From the IMG/VR virus record IMGVR_UViG_3300021376_000096, positions 1 to 48,934 of that record: 48,934 nt of DNA; one strand, given 5' to 3'. The stretch is from a virus. The position numbers were made by a program, and so were the translations under genes. Shown piece after piece: positions 3,526-35,769 of the stretch. The notes under the pieces are model-generated. The model searched no databases. It was given only the letters and a program-made list of their open reading frames with translations, and had not been told where the DNA came from. Position 1 is the stretch's first letter; every line of letters begins with the position of its first letter.

Positions 3526-3795
3526 TTAGAATGTACCTCCATCCATAGTCGTATCTACACTAGCTATGGGTTTTACTTCGTATTTATCTGTTGCAGCGTT
3601 GTAAGTCACTACATCGCCATTACCAGGAGTACCTTCTACAACATCCAAAAGTTGATCAAATCTTTGGCCGGGGGTTGAAATCAAACTGATAGGGTTAACC
3701 TTAGCAGTTTGCTGCAATCCTCCGTTCACGTTTTTTACAGTGACAACACCAGCTTGTTTCTGGCCTGCTACTGTAACTTTACTTATAATTGCCAT
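3526..3795 (-). CDS. Small fibre-module protein, possibly leaderless
   Basis: An 89-residue protein starting MAIISKVTVAGQKQAG and ending MDGGTF, the same C-terminal motif type as the following fibre protein (LDGGAF). The last codons contain GGAGGT, which serves as the Shine-Dalgarno of the next gene. An exact TATAAATA (3800-3807) ends only 4 nt before the ATG and no Shine-Dalgarno exists. No later ATG is available, so the message may start at or within the AUG. Function not recognised; it is probably a small tail-fibre component given its neighbours and shared C-terminus. Confidence 0.72.
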   Translation of the reverse strand: MAIISKVTVAGQKQAGVVTVKNVNGGLQQTAKVNPISLISTPGQRFDQLLDVVEGTPGNGDVVTYNAATDKYEVKPIASVDTTMDGGTF

Positions 3796-29535: not shown

Positions 29536-30558
29536 TTAGCCACCACCCTTATATTTTAAGGGTGGGTTGTTTGTGCCTGATCTCAATTTGTTACCAGGCT
29601 GCTCAGCACTTGGTACTGACTCTGCACCTTCTGGGGATTGTGGTCCACTCAAATCCATATTATTAAATTCAGCTTGATATGATGCCTTTGTTAGCTGTTC
29701 AATTTCACTTAACTCAATCTGCAATTCAACAGCTTGTGGAGCCCCCACTAACTTACTTTCTCCTGTATTCTTAAAGAATGCTGGAACATTTTGAGGTGCA
29801 TAGTTCACCTGAATTCTTTTAATTACACATCTAGCAAAACCGTACAATGCATTGGTACCAAAGAACATCACATCTACTTCATCAGGCATAGAGAGGAAGG
29901 AGCTACTTGCAGTGCCACCAGGTAAAGCATGAAACTTTAGCTCACTAATAATCTTTGCAATCATTACTGAGTCTTCTGGCGTTTCGGGTGTTAGTCTAAA
30001 TGTAAAGTTGTGTTGTCTAATTTCAACATTCTTGAAGATAGCTGTTTGGAATGGATTAGGAACATCGCCTGAAGCTAGATTCAACAATCCACCAACAGCC
30101 CCTGATACTTGAGCTAAAGATCTTAGAACAAATTCAGTTGTTCCACCAGCAGTTGTCTGGCCTGTGTCCTTACCCTCAGCTGTCTTTTCTTGACCGGCAA
30201 TAAAGTTCTTTAATCCTTCAGCCGTAGTTGCTTGTTGGCCAGCTTTAAACCCTAGAGCTGCTAATCCTAAATCAGCAGTTTCGTAGTTGATACCGATACT
30301 ATCAACTAAGTTTTCTGGTAATGGTAAAGCGATATGTGCTTGAGTAACATCTGTTGCAATAGTTGCCTTTTTACCTGGACCACCATAGCTAAACTTCTTA
30401 AATGCAAACAACATCCCCATCCCAAGTTTTTCCGGGGCAGCTGGAAAATGCAAGAGAGCTTCTGAAGCTCTACCGCGTGAACCTGAGCCTCTACCTGCTC
30501 TATCAGCTCCTAAAACAACGTTAGGGTTGTTGGATCTTGCAACAGTTGTACCAGCCAT
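29536..30558 (-). CDS. 48: Baseplate tube cap protein, gp48-like (340 aa)
   Basis: Starts MAGTTVARSNNPNVVLG at 30558, with AGGT about 6 nt upstream; a longer frame to 30609 would run into gp4 and has no ribosome site. The C-terminal half has the gp48/gp54-type tube fold strands: NPFQTAIFKNVEIRQHNFTF, FRLTPETPEDSVMIAKII and FARCVIKRIQVNYAP. In T4, gp48 caps the hub and nucleates tube growth. Residues about 120-170 are an Ala/Gly/Thr-rich insertion. It is the first gene of the minus-strand baseplate operon, divergent from gp4 by 12 nt. The C-terminal codons contain a 9-bp inverted repeat. Confidence 0.83.
   Translation of the reverse strand: MAGTTVARSNNPNVVLGADRAGRGSGSRGRASEALLHFPAAPEKLGMGMLFAFKKFSYGGPGKKATIATDVTQAHIALPLPENLVDSIGINYETADLGLAALGFKAGQQATTAEGLKNFIAGQEKTAEGKDTGQTTAGGTTEFVLRSLAQVSGAVGGLLNLASGDVPNPFQTAIFKNVEIRQHNFTFRLTPETPEDSVMIAKIISELKFHALPGGTASSSFLSMPDEVDVMFFGTNALYGFARCVIKRIQVNYAPQNVPAFFKNTGESKLVGAPQAVELQIELSEIEQLTKASYQAEFNNMDLSGPQSPEGAESVPSAEQPGNKLRSGTNNPPLKYKGGG
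29543..29565 (-). other. Hairpin in gp48 3' end, before gp53 ribosome site
   Basis: Inverted repeat CCACCCTTA (29543-29551) and TAAGGGTGG (29557-29565) with a 5-nt loop, inside the last codons of gp48 (ending PPLKYKGGG). No T run follows on either strand, so it is not an intrinsic terminator. Confidence 0.6.
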
Positions 30559-30565
30559 ATAAATA
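30558..30565 (+). promoter_or_regulatory. T4-type late promoter abutting gp4 start codon
   Basis: Exact TATAAATA on the plus strand, followed by CCTAT and the gp4 ATG. The first T of the octamer is also the complement of the first base of the gp48 start codon on the other strand. Confidence 0.8.
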
Positions 30566-30570
30566 CCTAT

Positions 30571-31014
30571 ATGAGTTATAAGGGGCGTTATAAAGTCAAA
30601 AATCCACAAAAATACAAAGGTGACCCCACCAATGTTATTTATCGTTCATCTTTAGAGCTTAAATTGATGAACTATCTTGACATCCATCCTGACATAATAG
30701 AGTGGTCGAGTGAGGAGTTTTTTGTACCTTATCTGTCGCCAATTGATGGTAGATACCATAGATACTTTCCTGATTTTAGTATAAGGAGACGAGATAAGAA
30801 TGGTAATGTTGATAGGATTGTAATAGAAATTAAACCATCTTCTCAGACCAAGGCTCCGGAAAGGAAAAGTAGAGCAACACCAAGATATATTAACGATGTT
30901 AAGAACTGGGGCATTAATAACGCCAAATGGAAAGCATGTAAAGAGTTCTGTGATGAAAGGAAGTGGAAGTTCCAAATCTTAACAGAACGAGAGATCAATG
31001 GATACAACTACTAA
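30571..31014 (+). CDS. 4: Head completion nuclease gp4
   Basis: A 147-residue protein, the usual length of T4 gp4 (also called gp50). It carries a PD-(D/E)XK nuclease core: Pro67-Asp68 in RYFPDFS and Glu86-x-Lys88 in IVIEIK, with a conserved upstream Glu in YRSSLELKLM. The N-terminus (MSYKGRYKVKNPQKYKGDP) is typical. In T4 it is needed to complete filled heads before tail joining. No Shine-Dalgarno is visible; TATAAATA ends 5 nt before the ATG, so the mRNA may begin at AUG. First gene of the plus-strand tail operon; divergent from gp48. Confidence 0.92.
   Translation: MSYKGRYKVKNPQKYKGDPTNVIYRSSLELKLMNYLDIHPDIIEWSSEEFFVPYLSPIDGRYHRYFPDFSIRRRDKNGNVDRIVIEIKPSSQTKAPERKSRATPRYINDVKNWGINNAKWKACKEFCDERKWKFQILTEREINGYNY
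30636..30643 (-). promoter_or_regulatory. Possible late promoter GATAAATA for gp48
   Basis: Seven of eight matches to TATAAATA on the minus strand, inside the gp4 gene, 77 nt upstream of the gp48 start. No better candidate precedes gp48. Confidence 0.3.
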
Positions 31015-31603
31015 TGTTCGTGGATTTCAAAAGCTCCTAATAGAAGCAGAGAGGGATGGCATTGTATTAGATAATTCAGCTGAATCTCTATCGTGGCTAA
31101 GGCAAAACTATGCTACACTCTCCCCAAGGGATGTCATGCCTAGAGAGTTTATTAAAGATACTAATAGGTATAGAAAAACACCATTAATTGGTAGACTATA
31201 CATGTTTCTATATAAGGCTAAATATAAGAATGAGTTACCATATTATGATAGATTTCCACTAGTGTTTCCAATAAGAAGAGTTGGTGGTGGATTTTATGGG
31301 TTAAATATCCATTATCTTGCTCCAAGATTTAGAGCACTTTTAATGGATTCACTATATAGTACAATCAGCAATACAAAGTTTGATGAGACGACAAGATTGA
31401 GGATCAACTATGATATTCTTAATTCAGCATCTAAATATAGATGGTTTAGACCTTGTGTAAAACATTATTTGACACCATATTTGTCATCGCAATTACTTTA
31501 TATTGACCCTAAAGAATGGAACCTAGCTTTATTTGTTCCATCAGAACAGTTTAGAGGTGCAAACAAGAACAAGGTCTGGACAGATTCAAGAGAGATGTTT
31601 TAA
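30998..31603 (+). CDS. Conserved T4-like tail-region protein, unassigned (201 aa)
   Basis: Basic, aromatic-rich protein with the highly recognisable segment YYDRFPLVFPIRRVGGGFYG, then LNIHYLAPRFRALLMDSL, found in many T4-like phages next to gp4 and tube genes. I do not know its established T4 name with confidence. The start overlaps the gp4 end by 17 nt and has GAGAG upstream. It ends with TAATG overlap into the gp54-like gene, so it is made from the same message as head and tail completion proteins. A virion morphogenesis role is inferred only from context. Confidence 0.8.
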   Translation: MDTTTNVRGFQKLLIEAERDGIVLDNSAESLSWLRQNYATLSPRDVMPREFIKDTNRYRKTPLIGRLYMFLYKAKYKNELPYYDRFPLVFPIRRVGGGFYGLNIHYLAPRFRALLMDSLYSTISNTKFDETTRLRINYDILNSASKYRWFRPCVKHYLTPYLSSQLLYIDPKEWNLALFVPSEQFRGANKNKVWTDSREMF

Positions 31604-32607
31604 TGGCATTCAACATAGAAAAATTTAAATCAGCAACAAGCGGCGGCTTCATTAGGCCGTCAAATTTTTTGGTTTATATTCTGCCTCCAACATGGGCTTT
31701 AAATACTGAATATGATTATGACTTAGCCTATCTGACTTCAGCGGCATCGCTTCCTGGAATGCAAATTCTTACTCAAGAAGCAAGAATATATGGTGCTGGT
31801 CCAATTGTTAAGATGCCATACGATATTGCAACAACAGATATCTCAATGACATTTTATGTTGATGCTGATGGTATTTCAATCAACTATTTCTATGAATGGT
31901 TAAGAAATGTTGTTAATCTAAGTCACGACCAACTAGAAGTAAGGTCAGGGGCATTTAGCAACCAAATTGCATATAGAAGCTGGTACTCCACAAAGATAGA
32001 CATCATGTTATTCAATGATAAACCAGGTGGTAATCTTGAATCTCCTCAGGATGCAGCTCTAGCAATCTACACTCTATTTGATGTCTACCCAATTGGTATA
32101 TCTGAACCAGCTCTAAGCTGGCAGACAGGCAATGAAATACTACAATTCAATGTCACATTCTCATATAGATCATTTGAAAGAACAGTAGTCAATGTACCGG
32201 CAAAAAGAACTATTAGTATTCCTGGTGTGCCTATTCCTCCAAATGTTCCGCAGGCTCCATCAAGACCAATTCCAGTGCCACCTACTCTTTCGCATGAGCC
32301 TCCTCAGTCCTCTTCAAGACAATCAGGCAAGGCATCAAACAACACTAGACTTCAGGCTGTCAATGACTTTGCTAGAAGTTTGAGAGATGGTGCAATGAAG
32401 GTACGTACAGAATCAGTTTCTAAGGTTAATGATATTAGACAAGCAACAATGGGCAATGAATTTGTTCAGACTGGTGTTAATATCCTTAACACTGCTAATG
32501 AAATAAAGAGTACATTGGGTACTCTAAAACAACTAAACACTTCGCTAAAGAAGAATCTAATTCAAGATCTAAAAGGTGCAGTGAAGGGAAAGATTCCAGG
32601 TTTATAA
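31603..32607 (+). CDS. 54: Baseplate tube initiator, gp54-like (334 aa)
   Basis: The first 200 residues have the tail-tube fold pattern of gp19/gp48/gp54: MAFNIEKFKSATSGGFIRPS, LPGMQILTQEARIYGAGP, DISMTFYVDADGISINYFYE and the closing YPIGISEPALSWQTGNE, then FNVTFSYRSFE. In T4, gp54 sits on gp48 and starts tube polymerisation. Residues about 205-240 are a Pro-rich linker (VPIPPNVPQAPSRPIPVP) before a helical tail, an extension beyond the tube fold. Shine-Dalgarno GAGAG 9 nt before ATG; overlaps the preceding stop by TAATG. Confidence 0.8.
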   Translation: MAFNIEKFKSATSGGFIRPSNFLVYILPPTWALNTEYDYDLAYLTSAASLPGMQILTQEARIYGAGPIVKMPYDIATTDISMTFYVDADGISINYFYEWLRNVVNLSHDQLEVRSGAFSNQIAYRSWYSTKIDIMLFNDKPGGNLESPQDAALAIYTLFDVYPIGISEPALSWQTGNEILQFNVTFSYRSFERTVVNVPAKRTISIPGVPIPPNVPQAPSRPIPVPPTLSHEPPQSSSRQSGKASNNTRLQAVNDFARSLRDGAMKVRTESVSKVNDIRQATMGNEFVQTGVNILNTANEIKSTLGTLKQLNTSLKKNLIQDLKGAVKGKIPGL

Positions 32608-32627
32608 TTTAACAATTGAGGTGCATT

Positions 32628-33323
32628 ATGCCATTACCAAAGATTAGTCAGCCAATTTTTCAGCTTACATTACCATCAACAGGTAAAGTGGTTCACTATA
32701 GACCATTCACCGTCAGAGAAGAAAAGCTTCTCCTTATGGCTCAGGAGTCAAATGAGAAGAAAGATATTATTAATGTATATAAGCAGCTCATCAACAACTG
32801 TGCAATTGATCCAGTTGATGTGGATAATCTTGCTGCAATTGATTTGGAATACTTTTTTGTTTGTCTAAGAGCTAAGTCTGTTTCCAACATCTCTAAGATT
32901 ATGGTTACAGATAAAGACGATAACGAGACATATGAAGTGGAAATCAATCTTGATAAGATTGAAATTCAAAGAAAAGAAAACGTGTCAAGTAACGTGAAGC
33001 TAACAGACACAATTGGTGTAATCTTAAAGTATCCTACTTTCAATACGCTTACAAAAATTGATGAATCTTCTCAAGTGGATTCAACATTAGCAATTCTTAG
33101 GGGATGCATTGACCAGATTTATGAAGGCGAGGAAGTGTTTGACACGGCCAACTACTCAAAGCAAGAATTAGATGACTTTATTTTATCTTTGAATAAAAAC
33201 CAGATTGAAGAGATTCAAAAGTTTTTTGAAGCAATGCCAAAGTTAATCTATAATGCTAAGTATATGACTAAGGAAAAGGTTGTTAAGGACCTCAAGATAG
33301 AGGGCCTCGAGAATTTTTTCTAG
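32628..33323 (+). CDS. 26: gp26-family baseplate/tail assembly protein (frameshift upstream partner)
   Basis: A 231-residue protein of the T4 baseplate hub assembly (gp26-type) family, recognised from LPSTGKVVHYRPFTVREEKL, LLMAQESNEKKDI and DLEYFFVCLRAKSVSNI. ATG 32628 has GAGGTG 6 nt upstream; a frame extension to TTG 32616 is rejected. The last codons AAT TTT TTC TAG contain the heptamer T TTT TTC with a hairpin 4 nt later, predicted to send some ribosomes into the -1 frame and make a 295-residue product with the next ORF. Its place just before the tape-measure gene matches tail assembly chaperones of other tailed phages. The chaperone role is inferred. Confidence 0.85.
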   Translation: MPLPKISQPIFQLTLPSTGKVVHYRPFTVREEKLLLMAQESNEKKDIINVYKQLINNCAIDPVDVDNLAAIDLEYFFVCLRAKSVSNISKIMVTDKDDNETYEVEINLDKIEIQRKENVSSNVKLTDTIGVILKYPTFNTLTKIDESSQVDSTLAILRGCIDQIYEGEEVFDTANYSKQELDDFILSLNKNQIEEIQKFFEAMPKLIYNAKYMTKEKVVKDLKIEGLENFF

Positions 33324-33352
33324 TATTGGCTGGGTATAACAACCTAGCCAAT
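33314..33352 (+). promoter_or_regulatory. Programmed -1 ribosomal frameshift signal
   Basis: Slippery heptamer T TTT TTC at 33314-33320 in the correct phase with the gp26-family frame, stop TAG at 33321, a 4-nt spacer, then a hairpin: ATTGGCTGGGT (33325-33335), loop ATAACA, ACCTAGCCAAT (33342-33352), 11 pairs with one G-U. The -1 frame is open across the site and continues into the 62-codon ORF. Confidence 0.85.
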
Positions 33353-33514
33353 TACTATCAGACTATATTTGCATTATGCCAACACCATAAATATTCTATT
33401 AGTGATGTTGAAAATCTTTTGCCATTTGAACGTGACATTTATATTGCTATGCTAATTGATTATCTTGAAAAAGAGAAAGAACGATTACGTAAACAAGGAT
33501 ATAAAGACGTATAA
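33326..33514 (+). CDS. Short -1 frame extension of gp26-family protein (62 codons)
   Basis: The only possible independent start is TTG at 33326, with no Shine-Dalgarno, so the segment is most likely expressed by -1 frameshifting from the preceding gene, adding Leu-Val before this ORF. The sequence (AGYNNLANYYQTIFALCQHH, then LPFERDIYIAMLIDYLEKEK) is helical; FERDIYIxMLxxYL-type segments also occur in small proteins next to gp26 in other T4-like phages. It ends with TAATG overlap into the tape measure gene. In phages with known tail assembly chaperones, the analogous T domain binds the tape measure; that role here is inference. Confidence 0.82.
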   Translation: MAGYNNLANYYQTIFALCQHHKYSISDVENLLPFERDIYIAMLIDYLEKEKERLRKQGYKDV

Positions 33515-35769
33515 TGGCTTTACCAAAATTAGACAATACAGACATAGAGAAGAACCAAAAGATCATTATCCAAAAGATGGATGGTCTTAGTGCTGTATTA
33601 ACAGAAAAATTAGTTCCTACTATTCAAAAATTGTCGACAGAGTCCACTGTTGATAAAATGTTTCCTTTTGTTGTTCAGATTGCTGATAACATCTACAACA
33701 TTGCTGACAAACTAGAGGCCCAAGTTACTTCACTAAAAGAAGTCAAAGATGCTATAGAATTGTCAAAGCCTAAGGCTCCGGATGAAGGAGCTAGCATTGA
33801 GGCTGAGAGAGAAAAGCAGAAAGAAAAGAAAGAGCCTGAAAGGAAAGAAAAGAAACAAAAATCCTTTTTAGAAAGGTTGGGTGAGATATTTGAGAAGGTA
33901 CTAATACCGCTTATTTTTGGATTTGTTATTGGACTATCTAAAGCGCTTGGTGGATTTGAATCTACGGTTGGTAGGATAATTACTATATTTGCTGCTCTCT
34001 ATCTTGCATTATCGGGATTCAGAAAGAAAGTTAATGAACTAGTAGTTTCTGGATTTAAGAAACTATTTGGTGGTGGCAAACCACCTGTACCAGCTGGAGG
34101 TGCGCCAGCCGCAGTACCTGGAGTTCCAGGTAAGGCACCAACCCCAGGAGCTCCTCCAGGCGCGCCTGGCGCACCTGGCGCACCTGATCTGAAGGGAGGC
34201 AAGCCAGGACCATCAGGACTAGATAAGTTTCTAGAAGGTGCCAAGAAAGTCGGCAAATCCATTAAAGATTTATTTGTTGGTATTGCTGATACTATCAAGC
34301 AAGTATTAGGCAAGTTGTCAGAAGGCATTAAGCAATTCATCACCAAAGTATCAGAAGGCATCAAAGCCCTATTACAAAATATAGCTAAAGGTATCGAAAG
34401 CTTTGGTAAGACATCTGTCCTCAAAGGCGCCGCCGCCTTATTGGTTGTATCAGGTGCGCTGTTTGTAGCAGCCAAAGCATTCAAACAATTTGCTGATGTA
34501 ACCTGGGATGGTGTAGCTAAAGGTGTCGTAGCTATTACAGCACTCGTTGGTGTTACTAAACTATTAGAAAAGTCATCAATGAGTATGATTAAGGGTGCGT
34601 TTGCTCTTGGTGTCCTTGGTGGCGCATTGTTTGTAGCGGCTAAAGGCTTTGAAGTATTTACTAAGATAAGTTGGGAAGATTTAGCAAAAGCTGGTGTTGC
34701 CATTGTTGGATTAACAGCAGCTGTTATCGGGTTAGGTTTGGCAGCTCCTCTCGTTACGGCTGGTACTGTTGCGCTTGGTATCATGTCTGTTGGTTTAGTT
34801 GCATTTGCTGGAGCTGTAGCATTACTTGGAGCTGGGTTATCAACATTAACAACTTTCTTCCAACAAGTGGCGGCCCTTGATGGTGGTCAGTTGGCAGCAG
34901 CCGCAGCTGGCATTACAGCAATTGGTATATCTCTAGCTGCTCTTGGCGCAGGACAGGTCATTGGTGCTCTTGGCAACTTTGCATCCTCGATTCTAAGCTT
35001 TGGTAAGGACGATATATTTACTAAGCTAACAAAGCTAGGTGAAGTGGCTGGTGATTTAAATCAACTACCAGGTACAATTGAAGCTTTAGGCAAACTATCA
35101 AACTTCAAAGTCTCAAATGACTTTATGAAGAATGTCGATATGCTATCAGCTGGTCTGAAGAAGATTGCTGAGTCAGCAAAAGGATTTGAAAAGACAGGTG
35201 ATTCATTAACTGCTCTAGCTAAGATTGCTGAGGTAATGAATAAGCCAGCTGCTGGTGGCACACCAGGAGGTGCTCAGCCAGGAGCAGCACCAGGTAAGCC
35301 TGCTGCAGGTCAGCCTCAAGCAGCCCCTGGTAGACAAGTAAATCCTGAAGTAGAGAAGGATGCTCGCGCTCTAGAAGAACGTGCAGCCAAGCAAGAACAA
35401 CTAGCGGCTAATATGCGTAAGTCTGGTAACGAATCATCCGCAAAAATTATAGAAAACAAAGCGGCAGGTGATCGCCGCTTAGCAGCTCAGCTGCGAAATC
35501 CTGTGGATTCAAAGGGTCGCCCATTAACGGAAGAACAGCAACGAGCAATTATTGAAGGTAGACCAGCTAAGGTAGGCGAACAACTAACAACAGACTCACA
35601 AAAGGTAGAAGCTGCTAAGGGTGGTGCTGGTGGTGGTTCAACTAATGTTGTCAATGCACCACAGCAATCTGTTGTTAATGCTCCACAGAGCCAGACAGTT
35701 AATACACCACTAAGTGCCTTTGGCACATTTGGTGGTAGAGTAAGTAGAGCTGTTTCAGCTCTGTTCTAA
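33514..35769 (+). CDS. 29: Tape-measure/hub protein, gp29-like (751 aa)
   Basis: Architecture of a tape measure: N-terminal helical region with a charged coiled coil (residues about 90-125), then several hydrophobic segments (LIPLIFGFVIGLSKALGG, IITIFAALYLALSGF, GAAALLVVSGALFVAAKAF, a long Ala/Gly/Val block around 390-470) and a Gln/Ala-rich C-terminus. A collagen-like stretch GAPPGAPGAPGAP lies near residues 209-226. In T4, gp29 fixes tail length and sits inside the tube. It follows the gp26-family frameshift pair by TAATG overlap. Homology to gp29 is inferred from position and architecture, since tape measures diverge fast. No membrane function is implied before injection. Confidence 0.8.
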   Translation: MALPKLDNTDIEKNQKIIIQKMDGLSAVLTEKLVPTIQKLSTESTVDKMFPFVVQIADNIYNIADKLEAQVTSLKEVKDAIELSKPKAPDEGASIEAEREKQKEKKEPERKEKKQKSFLERLGEIFEKVLIPLIFGFVIGLSKALGGFESTVGRIITIFAALYLALSGFRKKVNELVVSGFKKLFGGGKPPVPAGGAPAAVPGVPGKAPTPGAPPGAPGAPGAPDLKGGKPGPSGLDKFLEGAKKVGKSIKDLFVGIADTIKQVLGKLSEGIKQFITKVSEGIKALLQNIAKGIESFGKTSVLKGAAALLVVSGALFVAAKAFKQFADVTWDGVAKGVVAITALVGVTKLLEKSSMSMIKGAFALGVLGGALFVAAKGFEVFTKISWEDLAKAGVAIVGLTAAVIGLGLAAPLVTAGTVALGIMSVGLVAFAGAVALLGAGLSTLTTFFQQVAALDGGQLAAAAAGITAIGISLAALGAGQVIGALGNFASSILSFGKDDIFTKLTKLGEVAGDLNQLPGTIEALGKLSNFKVSNDFMKNVDMLSAGLKKIAESAKGFEKTGDSLTALAKIAEVMNKPAAGGTPGGAQPGAAPGKPAAGQPQAAPGRQVNPEVEKDARALEERAAKQEQLAANMRKSGNESSAKIIENKAAGDRRLAAQLRNPVDSKGRPLTEEQQRAIIEGRPAKVGEQLTTDSQKVEAAKGGAGGGSTNVVNAPQQSVVNAPQSQTVNTPLSAFGTFGGRVSRAVSALF

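Follow-up and report, generated by a model that had tools for sequence, protein, structure and literature searches.

Many uncultured relatives of phage T4 probably translate the head closure/completion protein gp4 from a leaderless message, unlike T4 itself. The underlying arrangement is found in the window (i.e., the whole 48,934-base stretch of DNA analyzed here, an IMG/VR fragment of a T4-like phage), where a late octamer is followed by exactly 5 nt and the gp4 start codon. It is quite likely that a late (gp55-type) promoter of gp4 starts transcription at, or within 1-2 bases of, the AUG, so that the message would carry no leader; the distance between octamer and AUG would be kept by selection, and the promoter of the divergent gene gp48 would be located inside gp4.

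The gp4-gp48 junction

Positions 30555-30573 of the window (CCATATAAATACCTATATG) consist, in this order, of CCA, TATAAATA, CCTAT, and ATG. The octamer (30558-30565, + strand) is assigned as the T4-type late promoter of gp4 on its sequence and on its conserved position in relatives. The 5-nt spacer CCTAT (30566-30570, +), conserved in length and not in letters, separates it from the ATG of gp4 at 30571 (30571-31014, +; 147 aa; PHROG phrog_218, E 3.6e-55), precisely as described in a sequence-only reading of this DNA. Since the alignment with T4 gp4 (36% identity) begins residue 1 to residue 1, the start codon is considered sound. On the opposite strand, gp48 (baseplate tail tube cap; 29536-30558, -; phrog_230, E 8e-48) starts with an ATG at 30558-30556. 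Base 30558 is common to this codon and the gp4 octamer, whose first T is the last base of CAT, the complement of the gp48 ATG; the one-base overlap reported earlier is therefore real.

Between the two start codons lie 12 nt (30559-30570). The earlier suggestion that this gap also serves gp48 stands in part: the gp4 spacer contains AGG (the complement of CCT; 30566-30568, -), a weak Shine-Dalgarno (SD)-like site of gp48, while no gp48 late promoter is present in the gap. The nearest octamer on the gp48 side (GATAAATA, one mismatch; 30643-30636, -) is located within gp4.

In T4 numbering, the late octamer begins at -13, as given in an excerpt of PMC2988020. Together with the conserved spacing, this numbering puts the predicted transcription start of gp4 at 30571 (+), the A of the AUG, in agreement with the sequence-only reading; the prediction may be off by 1-2 nt. 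The octamer occupies -13 to -6 by its position, the value of -13 itself presuming a start at the AUG. The gp55-type promoter would serve gp4 and its operon, with RNA polymerase starting at or near the A of the AUG. Genes located 3' of gp4 (30998-35769, +) correspond to the gp2 DNA end protector, a tail-tube-like protein, the baseplate hub, a hub assembly catalyst, and a tape-measure-like protein. In the window, no other exact octamer is found upstream of them on the + strand, that of gp4 being the only exact TATAAATA on this strand, nor did a search for sigma-70 promoters between 29900 and 31100 yield any match on it.

A close relative, G001 (188 kb), encodes both gp55 (41% identity to that of T4) and gp45; neither was found in the window, itself a fragment. 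G001 also encodes 22 tRNAs and a tmRNA (L089 15321-15701, +) matching the permuted and betaproteobacterial Rfam families, which hints at a betaproteobacterial host.

Octamer counts within the window alone equal chance (6 exact copies of TATAAATA vs 5.24 expected; 105 one-mismatch copies vs 114 expected) and were set aside as uninformative. All six exact octamers are located 4-65 nt 5' of an ORF start, on the same strand as the ORF.

Conservation of the octamer-AUG distance among relatives

From one site, the 5-nt spacing is not judgeable; across relatives, it is far above chance. The comparison covered 253 gp4 loci from three viral-contig scans (best 80 of at least 599 candidates each), 14 named phage records, and the window. 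After removal of five loci without an ATG and two with less than 40 nt upstream, 246 were kept, and identical upstreams were collapsed, some contigs having been fetched more than once. One set, of 107 clusters, was built by upstream DNA similarity, blind to the state of gp4. For another, of 98 representatives, 171 proteins were grouped at 80% identity separately for each state, so that near relatives of different state stay apart; the 171 exclude identical proteins, loci with less than 55 nt upstream, and loci lacking a complete gp4 of at least 125 aa.

An octamer with at most one mismatch occurs at a spacer of 5 in 75 of the 246 listed loci (exact in 37/246), in 43 of their 152 distinct upstreams (exact in 26/152), and in 21 of the 107 upstream clusters. 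In 300 shuffles of these clusters, the mean at spacer 5 was 0.39 and the maximum 3, with a maximum of 4 at any spacer; the exact octamer is present at spacer 5 in 13/107 clusters (shuffle mean 0.03, maximum 1). That the spacing might be kept in related phages, a point raised by the sequence-only reading, holds for many lineages, whose spacer letters are unrelated and whose gp48 neighbors differ. Within the clade of the window, the 13 nt of octamer and spacer are identical in nine of ten distinct sequences, and the adjoining gp48 N-terminus differs. Across the spacer-5 representatives the spacer letters are variable, T being present at -1 in 16/19.

In the 98 representatives of the listed loci, the nearest exact octamer is located at 4 nt (1), 5 nt (14), or 23-44 nt (22), and none occurs at 6-22 nt. 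The exact octamers of the 107 clusters are likewise confined to 4-5 nt (14) and 23-44 nt. One-mismatch octamers are found at 6-22 nt in small numbers, and 32/98 representatives contain no octamer with at most one mismatch within 52 nt upstream. These distances suggest two states of gp4: either the spacer is 5 and the predicted RNA is leaderless, or the leader measures at least ~18 nt. The spacer-5 state requires a minimum of 14 changes on the gp4 tree, six of which are forced by well-supported branches; the support of most forks is weak.

In four close relatives (L013, L014, L016, and L017), the promoter is kept, the ATG is replaced by ATT, and a different gp4 start is found ~30 nt downstream; in these phages, the leaderless state may have been lost naturally in favor of a longer leader. 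In L070, the palindrome TATAAATATTTATA precedes the gp4 ATG and gives rise to overlapping late octamers on both strands.

The closest competitor to a start at the AUG accepts the octamer as the promoter and places initiation 1-3 nt before the AUG; the leader would be ultra-short and the message functionally near-leaderless. Spacers of 4 and 6 do occur, core octamers stand at 6-10 nt in some lineages, and initiation at the A found at -2 in the window could leave a leader of 2 nt. However, the spike lies exactly at 5, in most of the phages T occupies -1 and is followed by A at +1, and exact octamers are absent from the range of 6-22 nt; such a displaced start is rather unlikely. Far less probable still is that the spacing reflects a passive squeeze between divergent genes, with no translational meaning and with gp4 read from a longer upstream transcript. 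Compaction is clear in the 12-nt gap of the window, but the octamer remains at 5 where the gap reaches 22-38 nt (L160, L142, L150, L156, L186, L185, L070, and L242), and the + strand of the window offers neither a further exact octamer nor, in the region scanned, a sigma-70 match. Chance placement of an AT-rich octamer near an ATG, with which the octamer total of the window would agree, is refuted by the 21/107 clusters that share a single spacer, where shuffles reached 3 at most, and can practically be dismissed.

With a leaderless gp4 message as the preferred reading, selection would hold the exact distance between octamer and AUG because gp48 leaves only 12-25 nt between the start codons in most of the phages, and this gap also holds the SD of gp48. 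A spacer of 5 nt would be favored as the smallest distance that leaves the whole AUG in the RNA.

Other genes of the same contigs

Short spacers are concentrated at gp4. Among non-redundant octamer-gene pairs from the same contigs, spacers of 4-6 nt account for 15/40 pairs of gp4 vs 5/114 of other genes (Fisher p 1e-6, two pairs at 3 nt or less being left out). Three of these five pairs involve gp2-like genes that directly follow gp4 in other lineages, and the remaining two belong to the ORF family of window positions 3526-3795. A control with the reversed octamer ATAAATAT was discarded, as it overlaps TATAAATA.

The gp2 DNA end protector genes with their own TATAAATA, 5 nt, and ATG are located at L036 4499, L040 3248, and L044 683 (all +). 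Their assignment as gp2 is based on the phrog_429 profile for L036 and L040 and on a similar N-terminus only for L044; an assignment of this second spacer-5 gene as gp48 was rejected, given the phrog_429 matches of L036 and L040.

The ORF at 3526-3795 (-) of the window encodes 89 aa without a PHROG match, and its ATG follows TATAAATA at a distance of 4 nt. Among relatives, the spacer is 4 in G001, 3 in G003, and 13 with a GAGG SD in G002. The ORF is a second candidate for a leaderless late gene, with one relative apparently leadered.

Translation signals at gp4 and gp48

The lack of an SD at gp4, already noticed in the window, is confirmed there and recurs in relatives: an SD 4-mer is found upstream of gp4 in 0/29 spacer-5 representatives (19 A5 and 10 B5) and in 6/43 of the leader class. 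The GAGG of the spacer-5 locus L271 precedes the octamer and is not part of the predicted RNA. Compared with the leader class (n = 43), the spacer-5 class (n = 29) has a weaker SD duplex energy at gp4 (p 5e-5); -2 kcal/mol is reached by 28/43 and 6/29, respectively. For gp48, the median duplex energy is -4.2 in the 19 A5 phages, and the AGG yields -3.7, computed for L154, which has the same upstream sequence as the window. As gp48 has an SD and gp4 has none, SDs are used by spacer-5 phages, with gp4 as an exception. If the gp4 message lacks a leader, ribosomes would have to start on its 5'-terminal AUG instead of via an SD. RNA folding is unremarkable for both the 60-nt 5' end of gp4 (z 0.02) and the gp48 leader (z 0.50).

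Three relatives, L091 (3623-3697, +), L096 (1102-1176, -), and L099 (18319-18393, -), encode a tRNA-Met(CAT) whose first acceptor pair is mismatched (T.T). These three presumably resemble initiator tRNA-fMet, but contain CAGC/GCTG in the anticodon stem. Raised levels of fMet-tRNA boost leaderless translation, according to a review.

An antisense octamer within gp4

The one-mismatch octamer GATAAATA, antisense within gp4, is a candidate promoter of gp48. The core TATTTAT (complement ATAAATA) covers conserved gp4 codons for I/V-I-Y-R. It is present within gp4 in 16 of the 17 spacer-5 representatives without a minus-strand octamer in the gap, against 1.8 expected from codon use; a lesser excess is observed where the gap does hold an octamer (11/33 in the leader class, 2.3 expected; 4/12 in spacer-5 representatives, 0.5 expected). 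The raw association of the antisense core with an octamer-free gap, kinship ignored, gives a Fisher p of 7e-4, and the kinship-corrected pair test, with only five independent pairs on starred branches, has no power. Among the ten distinct sequences of the window clade, synonymous codons are invariant in 21/28 testable cases up to codon 30 and in 16/84 after it, a pattern to be expected of a stretch with signals on both strands.

The gp48 promoter would have moved into gp4 in the form of the antisense octamer. In the window, GATAAATA predicts a gp48 start at the G at 30630 and a leader of 72 nt; with the gp48 promoter inside gp4, the 5'-terminal 60 nt of the predicted gp4 and gp48 messages would overlap.

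A broader interpretation is possible, though doubtful: interlocked opposed late promoters might have evolved repeatedly in uncultured T4-like phages, with a leaderless gp4 transcribed from a promoter overlapping the gp48 start codon and gp48 from an octamer in conserved gp4 codons. Complementary 5' ends of 60 nt and head-on polymerases would then couple the head-closure and baseplate operons, and an initiator-like phage tRNA might favor the leaderless message. The gp4/gp48 pair presumably resembles pR/pL of phage 186, which are face-to-face promoters with transcripts overlapping by ~60 nt. The latter pair constitutes a lysis-lysogeny switch, whereas gp4 and gp48 would belong to late structural operons, with the second promoter being predicted.

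Comparison with known systems and implications

The gp4 promoter shares the octamer TATAAATA, the expected start distance, and the gene class with the T4 late promoter, which depends on gp55, gp33, and gp45. T4 likewise contains opposed late octamers, between gp4 and gp53. T4 gp4 differs from that of spacer-5 phages in its AAGGAG SD and its spacer of 26 nt, and 17/17 octamers of a 50-kb late region of T4 have spacers of 14-94 nt. No octamer with at most one mismatch is present at spacer 5 of gp4 in the 22 named phage records. Given these records and the T4 spacers of at least 14 nt, no well-studied phage supports a leaderless gp4. A cultured relative closer to the window was sought and not found, the best gp4 identity being below 60%.

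Cyanophages possess a related octamer, and gp48 and gp4 are divergent in several of their records. The late promoter of S-PM2 and Syn9 is given as NATAAATA in an excerpt of PMC2984593. In the cyanophage gp4 genes examined, spacers are 21-32 nt where an octamer is seen; the exception is a second, looser core of S-H38 (ACTAAATA) at spacer 5, in addition to its exact octamer at 26.

In leaderless bacterial mRNAs and in lambda cI, a TA-like signal ~10 bp upstream of the start codon is taken to mark a leaderless gene, according to excerpts of PMC3160421 and PMC9031893. In the known leaderless cases, a host -10 element or a lambda promoter supplies the box, which here is the late octamer of a phage sigma factor at a virion gene. 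T4 late promoters and leaderless mRNAs are each known already; searches of an open-access library, with subscription papers largely outside their reach, turned up no report of the two in conserved combination at gp4.

The T4 late genes serve as the textbook example of late transcription combined with SD-led translation. A widespread T4-like group appears to translate an essential virion protein leaderless, while its divergent neighbor keeps an SD. Gene callers that depend on SDs could misplace such starts. As one gene occurs in both states in related phages, gp4 provides a natural test of leader loss, of the start distance of gp55-type promoters, and of the efficiency of leaderless translation late in infection.
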